The notes beneath the pieces were generated by a model, which was not told the DNA's origin, ran no database searches, and saw nothing but the letters and a program-made list of their open reading frames with translations. The translations under genes and the position numbers were made by a program. Shown piece by piece: positions 3,224 through 7,329 of a DNA stretch of 8,804 nt (position 1 is the stretch's first letter; the number at the start of each line of letters is the position of its first letter). The DNA is from a bacterium (GTDB taxonomy: Bacteria > JAHJDO01), in assembly GCA_030611945.1 (NCBI GenBank), contig JAUWOV010000072.1, forward strand, positions 1 through 8,804, given 5' to 3'.

Positions 3224-4007
3224 TATAGGAAATACAAGTATTAGCGCAGGCATATTTACCAATGATATATTGATATCTAAAATCAGCATAAAAACAAAGC
3301 AGAATGATGAAAGTAGGGACAGGTCGCGACCTGTCCGCATTGAATATTATTTCAAAAAGCTGAATGATTTTCTAATTGAATCAAATCTTAAGAAAGAAGA
3401 GATAACAGGTTTTATAATATCTTCTGTTGTGCCTGACATAACGAAATTATTCATAAGACTGTCTAAAGAACACTTTAATATCGTTCCGCTAGTAGTTGGC
3501 TATAAGACAAAAACTGGTTTAAAGATAACATACGATGAACCTTCTCAGGTTGGGAGCGATAGGATAGTCAACGCCGTAGCCGCATATAATCTGTACGGAG
3601 CGCCTGCAATAGTTGTTGATTGCGGAACAGCCACCACATTTGATCTGGTATCTAAAGAACGTGCATACATTGGAGGGGTAATATGTCCCGGCATAGGAAT
3701 GTCTATAAATGCGCTTTACAGAGATACTGCCTTGCTGCCAAAGGTGGAGCTCTCAAAGCCCAAGTCAATTATTGGAAAGAACACTACTCAGAGCATACAA
3801 ATAGGAATTGTGTACGGATTTAGTTCAATGATAGACGGCATAGTAAAAAGATTAAAAAAGGAATTTCCTACACCACCAAAGGTTATTGCTACAGGCGGCT
3901 GGTCATTGCTGATAAGTCAATATTCAAAAAGCATACAGAAAACAGATTTGGATCTTACGTTACAAGGCCTCAGGCTGATTTTTGATATGGGAAAAACATC
4001 ACTCTAG
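3207..4007 (+). CDS. coaX: Type III pantothenate kinase, with palindromic insert
   Basis: It phosphorylates pantothenate to 4'-phosphopantothenate, the first step of CoA synthesis. It belongs to the ASKHA-fold type III enzymes, which need a monovalent cation. The 266 residues carry DIGNTSIS (6-13, phosphate loop), GSDRIVNAVAAY (116-127, containing the catalytic Asp of the GxDR motif), DCGTATTFD (138-146), GGVICPGI (156-163), IIGKNTTQSIQIGIVYG (188-204) and ATGG (228-231). ATG 3207 is chosen over TTG 3201 because GAGGGA (3191-3196) is well spaced and MLFAVDIGNT matches family N-termini. It overlaps birA by 17 bp. Residues about 36-44 (SRDRSRPVR) come from a 20-bp palindrome splitting the usual 'DEY' region. 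Near the end, TDLDLTLQGL has Leu where the family and the downstream duplicate have Pro. The enzyme still looks intact. Confidence 0.94.
   Translation: MLFAVDIGNTSISAGIFTNDILISKISIKTKQNDESRDRSRPVRIEYYFKKLNDFLIESNLKKEEITGFIISSVVPDITKLFIRLSKEHFNIVPLVVGYKTKTGLKITYDEPSQVGSDRIVNAVAAYNLYGAPAIVVDCGTATTFDLVSKERAYIGGVICPGIGMSINALYRDTALLPKVELSKPKSIIGKNTTQSIQIGIVYGFSSMIDGIVKRLKKEFPTPPKVIATGGWSLLISQYSKSIQKTDLDLTLQGLRLIFDMGKTSL
3317..3336 (+). repeat. 20-bp perfect palindrome inside coaX
   Basis: GGACAGGTCG is followed directly by its reverse complement CGACCTGTCC. In frame it contributes most of R37-V43 (RDRSRPV). Ordinary CoaX proteins pass straight from the 'T..DE' segment to the following helix, so about nine or ten residues look inserted. 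No clear flanking target duplication is visible. Confidence 0.8.
3891..3994 (+). repeat. coaX 3' end, copy 1 of a 104-bp direct repeat
   Basis: This matches 4497-4600 without gaps at 92 of 104 positions, with an offset of exactly 606 bp. This copy is the functional end of coaX. Of the 12 differences, eight are synonymous in the coaX frame. Confidence 0.95.
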
Positions 4008-4312: not shown

Positions 4313-4497
4313 AACGCAATGATTTGATTAAACATCTACGAAGAAGTGGATGTTATCTCAAGCGAGAAGGTGCCAGTCATTCATTGTGGAGCAATCCGAT
4401 TACGGGACATGTCGAAGCAGTTCCACGGCATACAGAGATTCCCAACAGACTTGTTAATAAGATATGCAAAGCACTATCAATAAAGGAAATTGGATAA
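4309..4497 (+). CDS. hicA: HicA-family mRNA interferase toxin
   Basis: HicA toxins are small dsRBD-fold ribonucleases that cut mRNA and arrest growth when not bound by HicB. This 62-residue protein has the family pattern: KRNDLIKHLRRSGC, the catalytic-His segment EGASHSLW (His near residue 24), and the AVPRHTEIPNRLVNKICKAL C-terminus. It overlaps hicB by 4 bp and is probably translated by coupling. The TAA stop at 4495-4497 ends precisely at the first base of the duplicated coaX tail, so the gene abuts the recombination junction. The length is normal for the family, so I do not think it is truncated. Confidence 0.92.
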   Translation: MKRNDLIKHLRRSGCYLKREGASHSLWSNPITGHVEAVPRHTEIPNRLVNKICKALSIKEIG

Positions 4498-4613
4498 CAG
4501 GCGGCTAGTCATCGCTGATAAGTCAATATTCAAAAAGCATACAAAAAACAGACCCGGATCTTACTCTGCAAGGTCTCAGGCTAATTTTTGATATGGGGAA
4601 ATGCAATCTCTGA
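4497..4613 (+). pseudogene. coaX: Orphan 3' fragment of coaX (copy 2)
   Basis: In the coaX frame this reads T-G-G-stop, then SSLISQYSKSIQKTDPDLTL and QGLRLIFDMGKCNL followed by TGA. The fourth codon is TAG where copy 1 has TGG. There is no start and no upstream coaX sequence, so it cannot be expressed as CoaX. Compared with copy 1, seven codons differ silently (eight nucleotides). Three codons change the product: W to stop, L to S, and L to P. The Pro in DPDLTL is the family-like residue, so this may be the older resident tail left behind when the hicBA-bearing unit arrived. Confidence 0.9.
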
Positions 4614-4616
4614 AAC

Positions 4617-4633
4617 GTTCAATGATTAATGTT
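4617..4633 (+). repeat. Cassette left-border repeat, copy 1
   Basis: GTTCAATGATTAATGTT differs at one position from 6546-6562. Both copies end with the GTT that I propose as the crossover core of a cassette, just before the secreted-protein gene here and before the membrane-protein gene at 6571. It could be an attI-like site or the right arm of an attC site. Confidence 0.55.
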
Positions 4634-4638
4634 AGCTC
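4631..4638 (+). other. Leading core of cassette 1 (R'-like)
   Basis: GTTAGCTC is the exact reverse complement of GAGCTAAC at 5224-5231, just after the gene it precedes. In integron cassettes the leading-edge TTRRRY and the downstream R'' come from the same attC site of the circular cassette and should pair this way. The C at the sixth position departs from the GTTRRRY consensus. Confidence 0.55.
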
Positions 4639-4652
4639 TTAAGGAGAATATC

Positions 4653-5225
4653 ATGCTAAAGAAAAAATGGAGTCTACTTATTTGTTTAGTAATGGGAGTA
4701 TTCGTTGTCTCTATGGTGTATGCTCAATCAACCAGAAGAAAAAGTAATACCACTGAGTTAAAAAGGAAAATTCAAGCACAAAAATTAAAAAAGAAAAAAG
4801 AAAGAGAAACAGCAATAAAACGATTGCGTAAAAAATTATCTCCTATAATCAGAGGATATAGTATTGAGGAACTGCAACTAGCATTACTTATTAAAGTAAC
4901 AACAAAATATACAGGATGTAAAATTTACGCAACTGACACTCTTAATAACGCAAAGATATTTCTAGGAACTATTGAAAATGAATTTGCAAGTAATTCTATT
5001 TTTAATGAATTCGGTTCATATGGAAGTCCATACGCAACTAATAGCATTTGGAATGAATATGGAAGCTTTGGAGGCGAGTATTCAGCTATGAGTCCATTTA
5101 ACTCATATTCAGCAACTCCTCCAGTAATTGTTAAAAATGGTAAAATAATTGGACGTTTATCTACTAATAAATACACAACAGGAGCAATTGATCCAAATTG
5201 GCTAAAAACATATTTTAAATATTGA
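4653..5225 (+). CDS. Predicted secreted protein with 16-residue S-I-x-N-E repeats
   Basis: ATG 4653 is chosen because AAGGAG (4641-4646) lies 6 bp upstream. The ATG at 4629 would overlap the cassette core. The 190-residue product begins with a signal peptide: basic MLKKKW, hydrophobic core, and probable cleavage after VYA at residue 24. A Lys/Arg-rich stretch follows (about 28-62), then a small domain. Residues 113-155 hold two and a half copies of a 16-residue unit, seen as SIFNEFGSYG, SIWNEYGSFG and SPFNSYSATPP, with aromatic residues at 117, 133 and 149. The ending PPVIVKNGKIIGRLSTNKY completes a pattern I recall from unnamed exported proteins of other bacteria. The function is unknown. 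The DNA is very AT-rich (14 of 60 G+C at 4741-4800). The stop overlaps the attC-like site, as in integron cassettes. Confidence 0.85.
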   Translation: MLKKKWSLLICLVMGVFVVSMVYAQSTRRKSNTTELKRKIQAQKLKKKKERETAIKRLRKKLSPIIRGYSIEELQLALLIKVTTKYTGCKIYATDTLNNAKIFLGTIENEFASNSIFNEFGSYGSPYATNSIWNEYGSFGGEYSAMSPFNSYSATPPVIVKNGKIIGRLSTNKYTTGAIDPNWLKTYFKY

Positions 5226-5306
5226 GCTAACAAATCAATTCAGAGGAATTTGCATCCGGCAAATCCGTTGCGTTCTTTTGCCAATCGCTTAGCTGAGGTG
5301 TTAGAC
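5225..5306 (+). other. Candidate attC recombination site (59-be-like), 82 nt
   Basis: The left core AGCTAAC (5225-5231, ending in the essential AAC) is followed by AAATCAATTCAGAGGA. The right side reads CGCTTAGCTGAGGT before the core GTTAGAC (5300-5306), which fits GTTRRRY. TCA (5235-5237) pairs with TGA (5294-5296) and further interrupted pairing links the arms. GGAATTTGC (5245-5253) can pair with GCAAATCC (5259-5266) inside, with one bulged base. Length and right arm look like typical attC sites. The site overlaps the upstream stop and ends 16 bp before the next start. Confidence 0.62.
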
Positions 5307-5322
5307 GCAAAAAAACTATCCA

Positions 5323-6279
5323 ATGTCAAAATACAAAAAGCAACATTTTGTACCAAGCTCCTACCTTAAAACTTGGTGCGATTCAAAATGTCCCAAAAAC
5401 CAGACTCCATATGTTTGGAGATTTTCTTTTGATGGCACAGATGTAAAGAGAAAAGCTCCAAAGAATATATTTCATGAAACTGACATGTACACAATCAGAG
5501 GCGAAAATGGAAAACGCAATTTAATACTTGAGCATGGTCTCCAACAACTAGAAACAAAATTTGCAAGAATCAGAAGAAAAACACTTCAAAAAAAAAGAGA
5601 GTTAACAACAGAAGAGCACATTTTAATTTGTGCATTTATTGCTGCCACAAATTCAAGGACTAAAGCAACAAGAGATCATTGGAAGAAAAATTGGGAGCGC
5701 TCATTAAAAATGATGGAAGGCATGATGGAATGGGCAAAAACCGCCACTCCAGAAGAAAAGGAACGTGCGGCTTCAATATCTTCATTATCATCACGCGAAA
5801 ACAATAACAGTTTAGATTATAAACAGGTAAAAGAACTTCATGAAAATCCGTTACAAAAAATGTTGCCGGGCATGATAACTTCTCTAACTCCAATGCTTTT
5901 AAAATTAAACATGGCAATATTATGTACTAATAATATTCCTGGCTTTATTACATCGGACTATCCTTGTGTATGGTATGACCCTGAGGCATACAAAAGGCCT
6001 CCTTTATATCGGGCGCCAGGTTTAATATATCCTGCTCTTGAAATAACTCTTCCCGTATCTCCAAAACAAATCATACTTCTAAGCAGGCATGACTATACTG
6101 GCTATATGGACGTACATGAAAGAATTGTTGACGAACTTAACAGAAGAACAAGGTTTAATGCAGATGAGTATTTTGTTGTTAATAGTAATATGAAAAAGAA
6201 TTTCTGGTTTGACCCTGGCAAAGAACCTTCTGACTCATGGGAGAATACCCAAAAAAGGAAAGAAATAAGCGCCGAATAA
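5323..6279 (+). CDS. DUF4238-family protein
   Basis: The 318-residue product fits DUF4238 in the N-terminal KKQHFVPSSYLKTW (5-18), the central ITSDYPCVWYDP (209-220, matching the family's 'TSDxP'), and the C-terminal LPVSPKQIILL (243-253) with VDELNRRTRFNADEYFVVNS (269-288). There is no signal peptide or membrane segment, so it is probably cytoplasmic. The biochemical role of the family is not established. It is common in accessory and cassette DNA, and a defence role is speculation. It begins 17 bp after the GTTAGAC core of the preceding attC-like site, with no evident Shine-Dalgarno. GCCTAAC (6297-6303), complementary at six of seven positions to that core, follows its stop by 17 bp. This gene-plus-cores layout fits cassette 2 of the array. 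Confidence 0.85.
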   Translation: MSKYKKQHFVPSSYLKTWCDSKCPKNQTPYVWRFSFDGTDVKRKAPKNIFHETDMYTIRGENGKRNLILEHGLQQLETKFARIRRKTLQKKRELTTEEHILICAFIAATNSRTKATRDHWKKNWERSLKMMEGMMEWAKTATPEEKERAASISSLSSRENNNSLDYKQVKELHENPLQKMLPGMITSLTPMLLKLNMAILCTNNIPGFITSDYPCVWYDPEAYKRPPLYRAPGLIYPALEITLPVSPKQIILLSRHDYTGYMDVHERIVDELNRRTRFNADEYFVVNSNMKKNFWFDPGKEPSDSWENTQKRKEISAE

Positions 6280-6296
6280 TCGCATTGAATGCAGCG

Positions 6297-6303
6297 GCCT
6301 AAC
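6297..6303 (+). other. R''-like core of cassette 2, apparently broken attC
   Basis: GCCTAAC fits RYYYAAC and pairs at six of seven positions with the leading core GTTAGAC of the same unit (5300-5306). The following bases (GGGCTTATTTGGG) have no complementary right arm downstream, so the attC is likely truncated or interrupted by the repeats at 6386-6471. Confidence 0.4.
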
Positions 6304-6385
6304 GGGCTTATTTGGGTAGTTTGCTACACTTTCTTTTGCACATTCTCACTATCCACCTATATTCTCCTGCAAAGAGACATGTTTT

Positions 6386-6406
6386 AAATTTAATCTGAGA
6401 ATGGGC
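6386..6406 (+). repeat. 21-nt direct repeat, copy 1
   Basis: The sequence from AAATTTAATCTG to GAATGGGC matches 7141-7161 with one mismatch (A versus G after CTG). The copies lie 755 bp apart, bracket the membrane-protein cassette, and each leads into a different palindromic repeat. Confidence 0.8.
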
Positions 6407-6410
6407 AAAC

Positions 6411-6471
6411 ATCCCCCTGATTTCGCCTATGGCGAAACCGTCCCCCTTTGAAGATGGATTTAGGGGGATTT
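6411..6471 (+). repeat. Composite palindromic repeat, possible transcription terminator
   Basis: ATCCCCCT (6411-6418) pairs with AGGGGGAT (6462-6469). TCCCCCT (6441-6447) can also pair with AGGGGGA (6462-6468). Nested in the left part is TTTCGCC-TAT-GGCGAAA (6421-6437), a clean 7-bp hairpin that looks like a second element inserted into the first. The run ends GGGGGATTT but has no long T tract, so efficient intrinsic termination is doubtful. The whole gap 6280-6570 carries no gene that I can support. Confidence 0.65.
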
Positions 6472-6545
6472 CTAAAAATGCGGTTTCACATTTTTCTTGA
6501 TATCTTGGTTAAATAATGAGACATTACATTGAAATAGTGCTAAGT

Positions 6546-6562
6546 GTTCAATAATTAATGTT
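6546..6562 (+). repeat. Cassette left-border repeat, copy 2
   Basis: GTTCAATAATTAATGTT has one mismatch to 4617-4633 and again ends at the proposed GTT crossover core, 8 bp before the next start codon. Confidence 0.55.
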
Positions 6563-6568
6563 CTGCAA
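6560..6568 (+). other. Leading core of cassette 3 (R'-like)
   Basis: GTTCTGCAA is the exact reverse complement of TTGCAGAAC at 7112-7120, near the end of the same gene. The 9/9 match is the relation expected between leading edge and R'' of one integron cassette, although only the GTT fits the GTTRRRY consensus fully. Confidence 0.5.
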
Positions 6569-6570
6569 AG

Positions 6571-7134
6571 ATGGAAAATAGAATGGCAAGATCCGAAAGC
6601 GATTGGGTAAACATGGCTATAGCGCGGCTACCTCTGAACTTGATCAAGCCGAAACTGAAGGAAAGTCCGACTGAGGAGTTGTTATCTTTCTGGTGTAAAA
6701 ATAGACGAGACAAGTTTGCAGATGATCTTTTTGATGCTGTCCGAGACGTTCTTCAATCAAGAGATATTCCATTGCCAGAACAGCAACCTTTTACAGGAAA
6801 GAAGAAAGGCAGCAAGACAGAAATTGGAACCGGAATTGGCGGTCTCATAGTTTATTATGCATACAAAAGACTGATCGAGGAGTTCCCAGACTCTTTCATC
6901 CTGAATCTCCTCGGTGCCATCGCCATTGGTTGCCTTTTCGGACTCGTTCCCTATTTTGTCGCCAAGCACAGAGGTCACGCCAAACTCAGCAAGGGTTCTC
7001 TCATCGCGTGCGCAATCTCAGGTGCCATTTTCGGTCTCTTTGGGTCAGTGCCTATGGCCGTTATATTCACGATCGTGACGTTGCTTCAAAAGAAGACCCT
7101 AAAGCAAGACATTGCAGAACAAACGCATGGATAA
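6571..7134 (+). CDS. Small predicted membrane protein of unknown function (cassette 3)
   Basis: I do not recognise a named family for this 187-residue protein. The N-terminal soluble part (about 1-80) contains SPTEELLSFWCKNRRDKFADD and then a stretch ending in DIPLPEQQ. This 'EELL..W..NDR..W.D..F.A...IL..R' type motif is seen before membrane domains in many hypothetical proteins. Two or three hydrophobic segments follow (about 109-130 and 144-172, the latter probably a hairpin), with a short charged tail. ATG 6571 is used. ATG 6583 is possible and has a slightly better upstream purine run. The gene is much richer in G+C than cassette 1 (31 of 60 at 6901-6960), which suggests a different origin. 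The core TTGCAGAAC (7112-7120) overlaps the last codons, as attC sites often do. Confidence 0.75.
   Translation: MENRMARSESDWVNMAIARLPLNLIKPKLKESPTEELLSFWCKNRRDKFADDLFDAVRDVLQSRDIPLPEQQPFTGKKKGSKTEIGTGIGGLIVYYAYKRLIEEFPDSFILNLLGAIAIGCLFGLVPYFVAKHRGHAKLSKGSLIACAISGAIFGLFGSVPMAVIFTIVTLLQKKTLKQDIAEQTHG
7112..7130 (+). other. Left half of an attC-like site of cassette 3
   Basis: TTGCAGAAC (7112-7120) followed by AAACGCATGG looks like the R''-L'' end of an attC site (AAC then AAACGCATGGA). No matching CATGCGTT-type right arm is found before 7330. Repeats begin at 7141, so the site is probably truncated. Confidence 0.45.
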
Positions 7135-7140
7135 GTCCAA

Positions 7141-7161
7141 AAATTTAATCTGGGAATGGGC
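7141..7161 (+). repeat. 21-nt direct repeat, copy 2
   Basis: This is the second copy of the repeat at 6386-6406 (20 of 21 identical). It runs directly into the inverted pair at 7158-7226. Confidence 0.8.
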
Positions 7162-7226: not shown

Positions 7227-7276
7227 TGATATGCTTCGTTTTTATGTGCAATTTGATTTTGTGACATTTTTATATG

Positions 7277-7320
7277 ATAGTATAAAATTCTCTTGACAAT
7301 TTTATACTATGGTGTATAAA
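7277..7320 (+). promoter_or_regulatory. Three-half-site operator overlapping the ATPase promoter
   Basis: ATAGTATAAAATT (7277-7289) is perfectly complementary to AATTTTATACTAT (7298-7310), a 13-bp inverted repeat with 8-bp spacer. The 7-mer GTATAAA occurs three times: forward 7280-7286, reverse 7301-7307 and forward 7314-7320. The sites cover the -35, the spacer and the -10 of the promoter, so a bound dimer would block RNA polymerase. The binding protein is unknown. Confidence 0.7.
7293..7320 (+). promoter_or_regulatory. Strong sigma70-type promoter of the AAA ATPase gene
   Basis: Consensus TTGACA (7293-7298) and TATAAA (7315-7320, one mismatch) are separated by 16 bp. Transcription should start about 7327-7328, only 2-3 bases before the ATG at 7330, and no Shine-Dalgarno is present, so a leaderless or nearly leaderless mRNA is predicted. 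Confidence 0.75.
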
Positions 7321-7329
7321 TAACCTGTT

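Follow-up and report, generated by a model that had tools for sequence, protein, structure and literature searches.

How genes bounded like integron cassettes come to stand in the genome of a seafloor bacterium, with no integrase in view, is the question raised by the window analyzed here, which is the whole of contig G000:C86 (8804 nt) from a 1.66 Mb genome of 119 contigs, estimated to be 91% complete. The comparison set consisted of five species genomes (G000 to G004, the window's own being G000), all of one genus and the only ones of the phylum that were searched; G004 corresponds to CSMAG_1337 and G002 to CSMAG_1431, their coaX locus being identical to that of these public cold-seep metagenome-assembled genomes (MAGs). 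An earlier note had read three gene units in the window (4617–7134) as one cassette array lacking an integrase. Our analysis shows these units to be integron-type cassettes in two separate docking sites, and we consider it probable that such cassettes have docked at the G^TT of a dispersed, promoter-bearing, attI-like site, GTTYAATRATTAATG^TT. The features of the region are as follows.

4617–4633, plus strand: docking motif copy 1, GTTCAATGATTAATG^TT, a 17-nt repeat immediately behind the duplicated coaX 3' end, the promoter part being absent
4631–4638, plus strand: leading core of cassette 1, GTTAGCTC
4653–5225, plus strand: gene of cassette 1, for a 190-aa secreted protein with no Pfam match
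5224–5231, plus strand: trailing core of cassette 1, GAGCTAAC, pairing 8/8 with this cassette's leading core
5225–5306, plus strand: attC candidate between cassettes 1 and 2 (R'' AGCTAAC, R' GTTAGAC, 82 nt), of moderate score
5300–5306, plus strand: leading core of cassette 2, GTTAGAC, conforming to GTTRRRY
5323–6279, plus strand: gene of cassette 2, for a DUF4238 protein of 318 aa (Pfam PF14022, 8.3e-37)
6297–6303, plus strand: trailing core of cassette 2, GCCTAAC, pairing 6/7 with this cassette's leading core
6327–6385, plus strand: native right flank of the coaX–leuB docking site, matching the flank past a different cassette in G004:C56
6490–6562, plus strand: second docking element, 73 nt, with promoter-like part and motif (6546–6562), scoring 47.5 bits with the element model R1
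6560–6568, plus strand: leading core of cassette 3, GTTCTGCAA
6571–7134, plus strand: gene of cassette 3, for a 187-aa putative membrane protein with no Pfam match
7112–7120, plus strand: trailing core of cassette 3, TTGCAGAAC, pairing 9/9 with this cassette's leading core

All three units lie on the same strand, and re-reading them from the sequence (4631–7120) bore out the earlier description of a GTT core in the lead and an AAC core behind, with each trailing core pairing with the leading core of its own unit (8/8, 6/7 and 9/9). The genes also differ in base composition, as had been noticed (GC content of 30, 36 and 46% in units 1, 2 and 3). What did not survive is the idea of one contiguous, three-cassette cluster of attC lacking integron-integrase (CALIN). 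The 17-nt repeat GTTCAAT[GA]ATTAATGTT, whose last three bases are those of the leading core, directly precedes units 1 and 3, and the ~250 nt between units 2 and 3 are made up of native flank, a dispersed repeat and unit 3's own docking element, so that unit 3 represents a second docking event. Units 1 and 2 sit in one docking site after coaX and unit 3 in another, each behind its own copy of the conserved attI-like motif.

Core complementarity is a property of the genus rather than of this window. For the 43 element copies that have a first gene, the nine bases from the GTT onwards were set against reverse-complemented 9-mers taken around the first stop codon. Matches over 8 or more of the 9 positions occurred at 12 of the 43 sites, against 1.1 expected when leads were permuted among sites (maximum 5 in 1000 permutations), and four sites matched over all nine positions (0.10 expected under permutation), the corresponding frequencies at 633 control GTTR positions from the same loci being 2.1 and 0%. 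An independent, exact-match version of the test gave at least 8 nt at 7 of 36 sites, where 0.85 were expected. The columns past G^TT hold A (25/36), G or T (34/36), A or G (31/36) and C or T (24/36), and the core GTTRDRY is found at 12 of 34 sites as compared with a background of 7.7% (strict GTTRRRY at 5 of 34, p 0.019). Because complementary cores recur over the five genomes above permutation and control expectation, the units are integron-type gene cassettes, on which point the earlier note was right; and since the ends match within a unit and differ between units, they correspond to circular cassettes each closed at its own attC, unlike the inverted repeats of transposons.

The docking site itself extends well upstream of the motif. 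Searching the window's own genome with the 17-mer returned further copies, the upstream sequences of which align gap-free over ~76 nt and define an element of the form (T/A)TTTATTGAGGTTTTAAGC.ATTTGAG.TATGGTAATATTAAAG.AGAAGTGA.TGTTYAATRATTAATGTT. Within it, TTGAGG and TATGGT are separated by 17 nt, as in a sigma-70-type promoter, and this promoter-like sequence lies ~45 nt upstream of the docking site in most copies. A sequence-only model of the element (R1) yielded 87 matches when run on the five genomes (20, 18, 10, 17 and 22), 46 of which form alignment A2. The element is well conserved between about −70 and the GTT, and conservation drops at G^TT, after which the core GTT-A-(G/T)-(A/G)-(C/T) alone is left. 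The element also contains an inverted repeat of 8 bp, TTATTGAG / TTCAATRA (A2 columns 6–13 with 70–77, 96.5% of cells paired), for which the alignment gave no covariation above shuffles; most changes in its right arm retain a G-U type pair in the top strand. The element was considered as a folded attC and set aside, the inverted repeat being there and the covariation signal not. Terminators directly upstream of the element are modestly enriched (28 vs. 10%, n = 29). The viral contigs searched contained 58 exact matches to the 17-nt motif, none of them part of a convincing complete element (best 16.6 bits), and the 76-nt element was absent from the plasmids searched.

The same docking sites hold different genes in different relatives. 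In the coaX–leuB interval of G004, coaX is followed by the same motif, behind which come a different cassette (GTTATAAG...CTTATAAC, 8/8) and an attC-like stretch; the flank that follows, CACTTTCTTTTGTGCATTCTC (21 nt), also follows unit 2 in the window and has an exact match only at these two coaX–leuB loci in the five genomes. In G001, leuB comes directly after coaX with no insertion. At the lipB site of G003 and G001, the element on the left and the flank on the right (GTTATAAAAAAATAATTAAAA(A/T)TTATGAATAG) are common and the genes different (presumably, by reading impression, PHP-type in G003 and corrinoid-methyltransferase-like in G001). Cassette content is therefore interchangeable at one site, both at coaX–leuB and at lipB, and the occupation of sites with shared flanks by different cassettes implies that gain or exchange of cassettes took place once the sites were there. 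The plsY–gpsA interval is probably a further site with swapped cassettes: it is uninterrupted in G003, carries the element with different genes in G000 and G004, and has other content in G001, the G004 copy being a weaker case with its motif shortened to ATTATGTC and no trailing core recognised. Occupied and empty sites were also seen at ppdK–mcsA, adjacent in G003 and separated by element, cassette and attC in G004, and at yidC–mnmE, adjacent in G001 and separated by element and cassette in G000.

For attC sites we used our own R/L-box scanner, which recovers known Vibrio and class 1 attC sites. Three attC-like sites behind cassettes of the relatives, in G004:C104 (ATCTAACAAGGATAATTCAGCC...GGCTGACACACGGCGTTAGGT), G004:C29 (ACATAACAATCACATGCA...GGTGATGTGAGGCGTTATGC) and G003:C32 (TTCTAACAAGACGGTTGGAGGC...GCCTCAGACGCACGTTATAA), score 10.4–11.4, within the range of the Vibrio and class 1 yardsticks. 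The only complete-looking attC junction in the window is the one at 5225–5306, where R'' AGCTAAC and R' GTTAGAC stand 82 nt apart with weak L-box pairing; those past units 2 and 3 are truncated, the former shortened to ~30 nt and the latter cut by a dispersed repeat beginning near 7141. The top R/L-box hits in the window are at chance level (shuffle maxima 8.7–12), and DNA folding of 5215–5320 was no better than shuffles on either strand (z −0.9 and −0.5).

The earlier impression that no integrase is in view extends to all five genomes, none of which has a match to IntI (TIGR02249) over the cut-off, at a strict E-value at which the controls were also without a match. The best tyrosine recombinases of the window's own genome are XerD and XerC (362 and 348 bits by their own models), and these reach 147 and 142 bits with the integron model, the cut-off of which is 265. 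Nearest to IntI is a 295-aa protein found in G001 only (193 bits, its best stretch covering profile positions 5–180, with a second stretch further on), and in G003, which has many elements and cassettes, the Phage_integrase model matches, at E 1e-8 or better, XerC and XerD only. None of the tyrosine recombinases seen, XerC/XerD or others, scored at the level of IntI. Several short tyrosine recombinases (214–235 aa, mostly catalytic domain) occur in G000 (C88, C70 and C30), and such proteins are present in G001 and G004. No intI was found beside the dispersed motif copies, and the promoter part is a prediction from the sequence.

We propose that each cassette was once a circle closed at one attC, and that integration would split this attC to leave a TT-core at the front and a core-AAC at the back. 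Insertion would take place at the G^TT of the short docking site GTTYAATRATTAATG^TT, of which there are 10–22 dispersed copies per genome, and the promoter-like sequence upstream would transcribe the docked gene, such that the site would act as a dispersed, promoter-bearing attI. Both the docking specificity of the motif and transcription from the promoter-like part are suggested by sequence patterns. The enzyme would be an IntI-type tyrosine recombinase that may be supplied in trans, may have been lost, or may be absent from the assemblies. Several observations weigh against this proposal: a clear trailing core is seen at only ~12 of the 43 sites (about two thirds of copies lack one); the candidate at 5225–5306 scores 7.85 (per-AAC null p about 0.06) and is outside the window's top R/L-box hits; in two copies, at the coaX and pckG 3' ends, the promoter part is missing entirely or for the most part; several elements break off within the motif or are followed by large genes that do not resemble cassettes (e.g., 625 and 1065 aa); no recombinase was recognised as the responsible enzyme in the five genomes; and the spread of the 76-nt element is left without explanation.

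Other explanations were weighed against the same evidence. It is rather unlikely that the genomes carry a distributed integron, i.e., many scattered promoter-bearing attI-like sites loaded singly by a recombinase not recognised as IntI. Off-site integration at attG by a past or in-trans IntI, with the element as a repeated native promoter region where expressed cassettes are retained, would account for cores that conform to GTTRRRY in genomes with no intI, and attG insertion into genomes has already been described (single cassettes inserted in the chromosome outside the integron, at sites divergent from the classical ones; Loot et al., 2024, via PMC12901181). According to that secondary description, however, attG sites diverge strongly from classical att sites, such that a degenerate GTT would be expected, whereas we see a 17-nt motif in exact register, a 76-nt element conserved up to the junction in five species, and reuse of the motif at orthologous loci as well as motif copies lacking a complete promoter part at the 3' ends of coaX and pckG; we thus hold this explanation to be decidedly unlikely. 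Nor does it seem at all probable that we are looking at the degraded CALIN remnant of a normal chromosomal integron, rearranged and no longer active. The lack of an integrase in the five genomes and the truncation of several cores and attC sites would suit such a remnant, but sister species have different cassettes in the same sites between the same flanks, and the breaking-up of an array would not set promoter and motif before so many single genes.

The element might also be the retained half of a lineage-specific, promoter-carrying attC from earlier cassettes, at which later cassettes dock. About 5 nt separate the GTT from the right arm of the inverted repeat TTATTGAG / TTCAATRA, the position that L' has in an attC, with the 96.5% pairing given above, and in G003:C99 a partial element follows a trailing AAC core and precedes the next cassette. 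Yet the left end of the element has no R''-like AAC box, native genes (plsY, ppdK) adjoin it on the left in several cases, and, next to the absence of covariation above shuffles, the changes in the repeat keep pairing in the top strand, whereas attC recombination proceeds through the bottom strand; we give this reading a very small chance. Small transposable elements with terminal inverted repeats are hardly credible, for all that every unit has inverted ends of 7–9 bp: these ends differ between units, match within a unit, and always start with GTT and end with AAC, reading the sequences brought no target-site duplication to light, no transposase was found in the units, and high-scoring attC-like sites follow several of them.

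An integron as understood has one attI beside one intI, and one promoter feeding one array. The system described here functions in the manner of integron cassettes but falls short of a complete integron, having no intI and no attI beside an intI. As with attI and its promoter Pc, a conserved site receives the cassettes at its G^TT, and promoter-like sequence ahead of this site is directed into the cassette, but the classical arrangement is a single attI adjoining intI, against 10–22 copies per genome here, none found adjoining intI. A CALIN (as defined in IntegronFinder, PMC9024848) shares the complementary GTT/AAC cores, the attC-like sites and the lack of a nearby intI, and differs in being clustered, whereas the cassettes here are mostly single and dispersed behind one conserved promoter-bearing motif, and the attC in the window is weak; the formal criterion for a CALIN is two attC within 4 kb, and the window has one moderate candidate by our own R/L-box scanner. 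Single chromosomal cassettes outside an integron are likewise a feature of attG insertion as outlined in PMC12901181, from which the present case differs in that the target is a specific 17-nt motif within a 76-nt element, reused at orthologous loci. The integrons of archaea and MAGs (PMC9668308) also come from uncultivated lineages, and are mostly CALIN-like with cassettes of unknown function, but their intI-bearing members have a single attI beside intI, and none was found here. Literature searches, from which subscription journals were largely out of scope, returned no account of dispersed promoter-bearing attI-like sites. Overall, we favour, with reasonable confidence, an integrase-less, multi-site variant of the integron in this seafloor bacterium and its relatives. 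About twenty promoter-bearing docking sites per genome would make many captured genes first in line for expression, and cassette capture would be uncoupled from having an integrase. The dispersed attachment site lends itself to testing whether it is a substrate for IntI, for Xer or for some other enzyme, and gives a handle for mining unknown cassette genes of uncultivated lineages.

The cargo genes, as the earlier note had anticipated, have no fixed order elsewhere, the sole congeneric homologues of the genes of units 1 and 2 being found at other loci near docking elements. That of the unit 1 protein is directly behind an element in G004:C76, between eno/hicBA and mraZ, with worn cores around it (GTCAGACAC and GTGTCTAAG). 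At this locus (G004:C76:10229–10951) a hicBA pair lies immediately upstream of the docking element, as it does near the window's copy. The DUF4238 protein of unit 2 has its only congeneric homologue 1.8 kb downstream of an element, in G003:C24; it matches the PADLOC candidate defence model DUF4238-Pers weakly, which says little about function, and DUF4238 was found in no phages and, among plasmids, only as distant alphaproteobacterial and Cupriavidus relatives. More broadly, the first genes behind the element are accessory or unknown ones: next to unknown proteins they encode YhcG-type nucleases, Eco57I-type methylases, a kinase, a YggL protein, an ion channel and a Clp protease, with no obvious housekeeping genes among those scanned, and only four homologous pairs occur among 43 first genes.

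Around the cassettes, the gene order of the window is a DUF6785/DUF6784 membrane protein, nadC, birA, coaX, a hicBA pair, the duplicated coaX 3' end, units 1–3, an AAA_14/DUF4143 ATPase and the start of a leuB-like gene (nadC, birA and leuB being names we assume from reading the sequence). The duplication of the coaX 3' end comprises 105 nt (89% identical, at 3891–3995 and 4497–4601) flanking the hicBA toxin-antitoxin pair, and the second copy (4497–4601) resembles the coaX end of G004, so hicBA seems to have arrived with a replacement coaX 3' end. The stretches at 6386–6406 and 7141–7161 are the common start, AAATTTAATCTG(A/G)GAATGGGC, of two different palindromic dispersed repeats; similar repeats are present in dozens of copies in all five genomes and frequently stand close upstream of the docking element. 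An Rfam scan of the window gave nothing at the gathering score. Upstream of the AAA_14/DUF4143 gene, at 7266–7321, lies a 27-nt imperfect inverted repeat with a TTGACA-like hexamer, possibly an operator, and a similar sequence is found in G002:C89.

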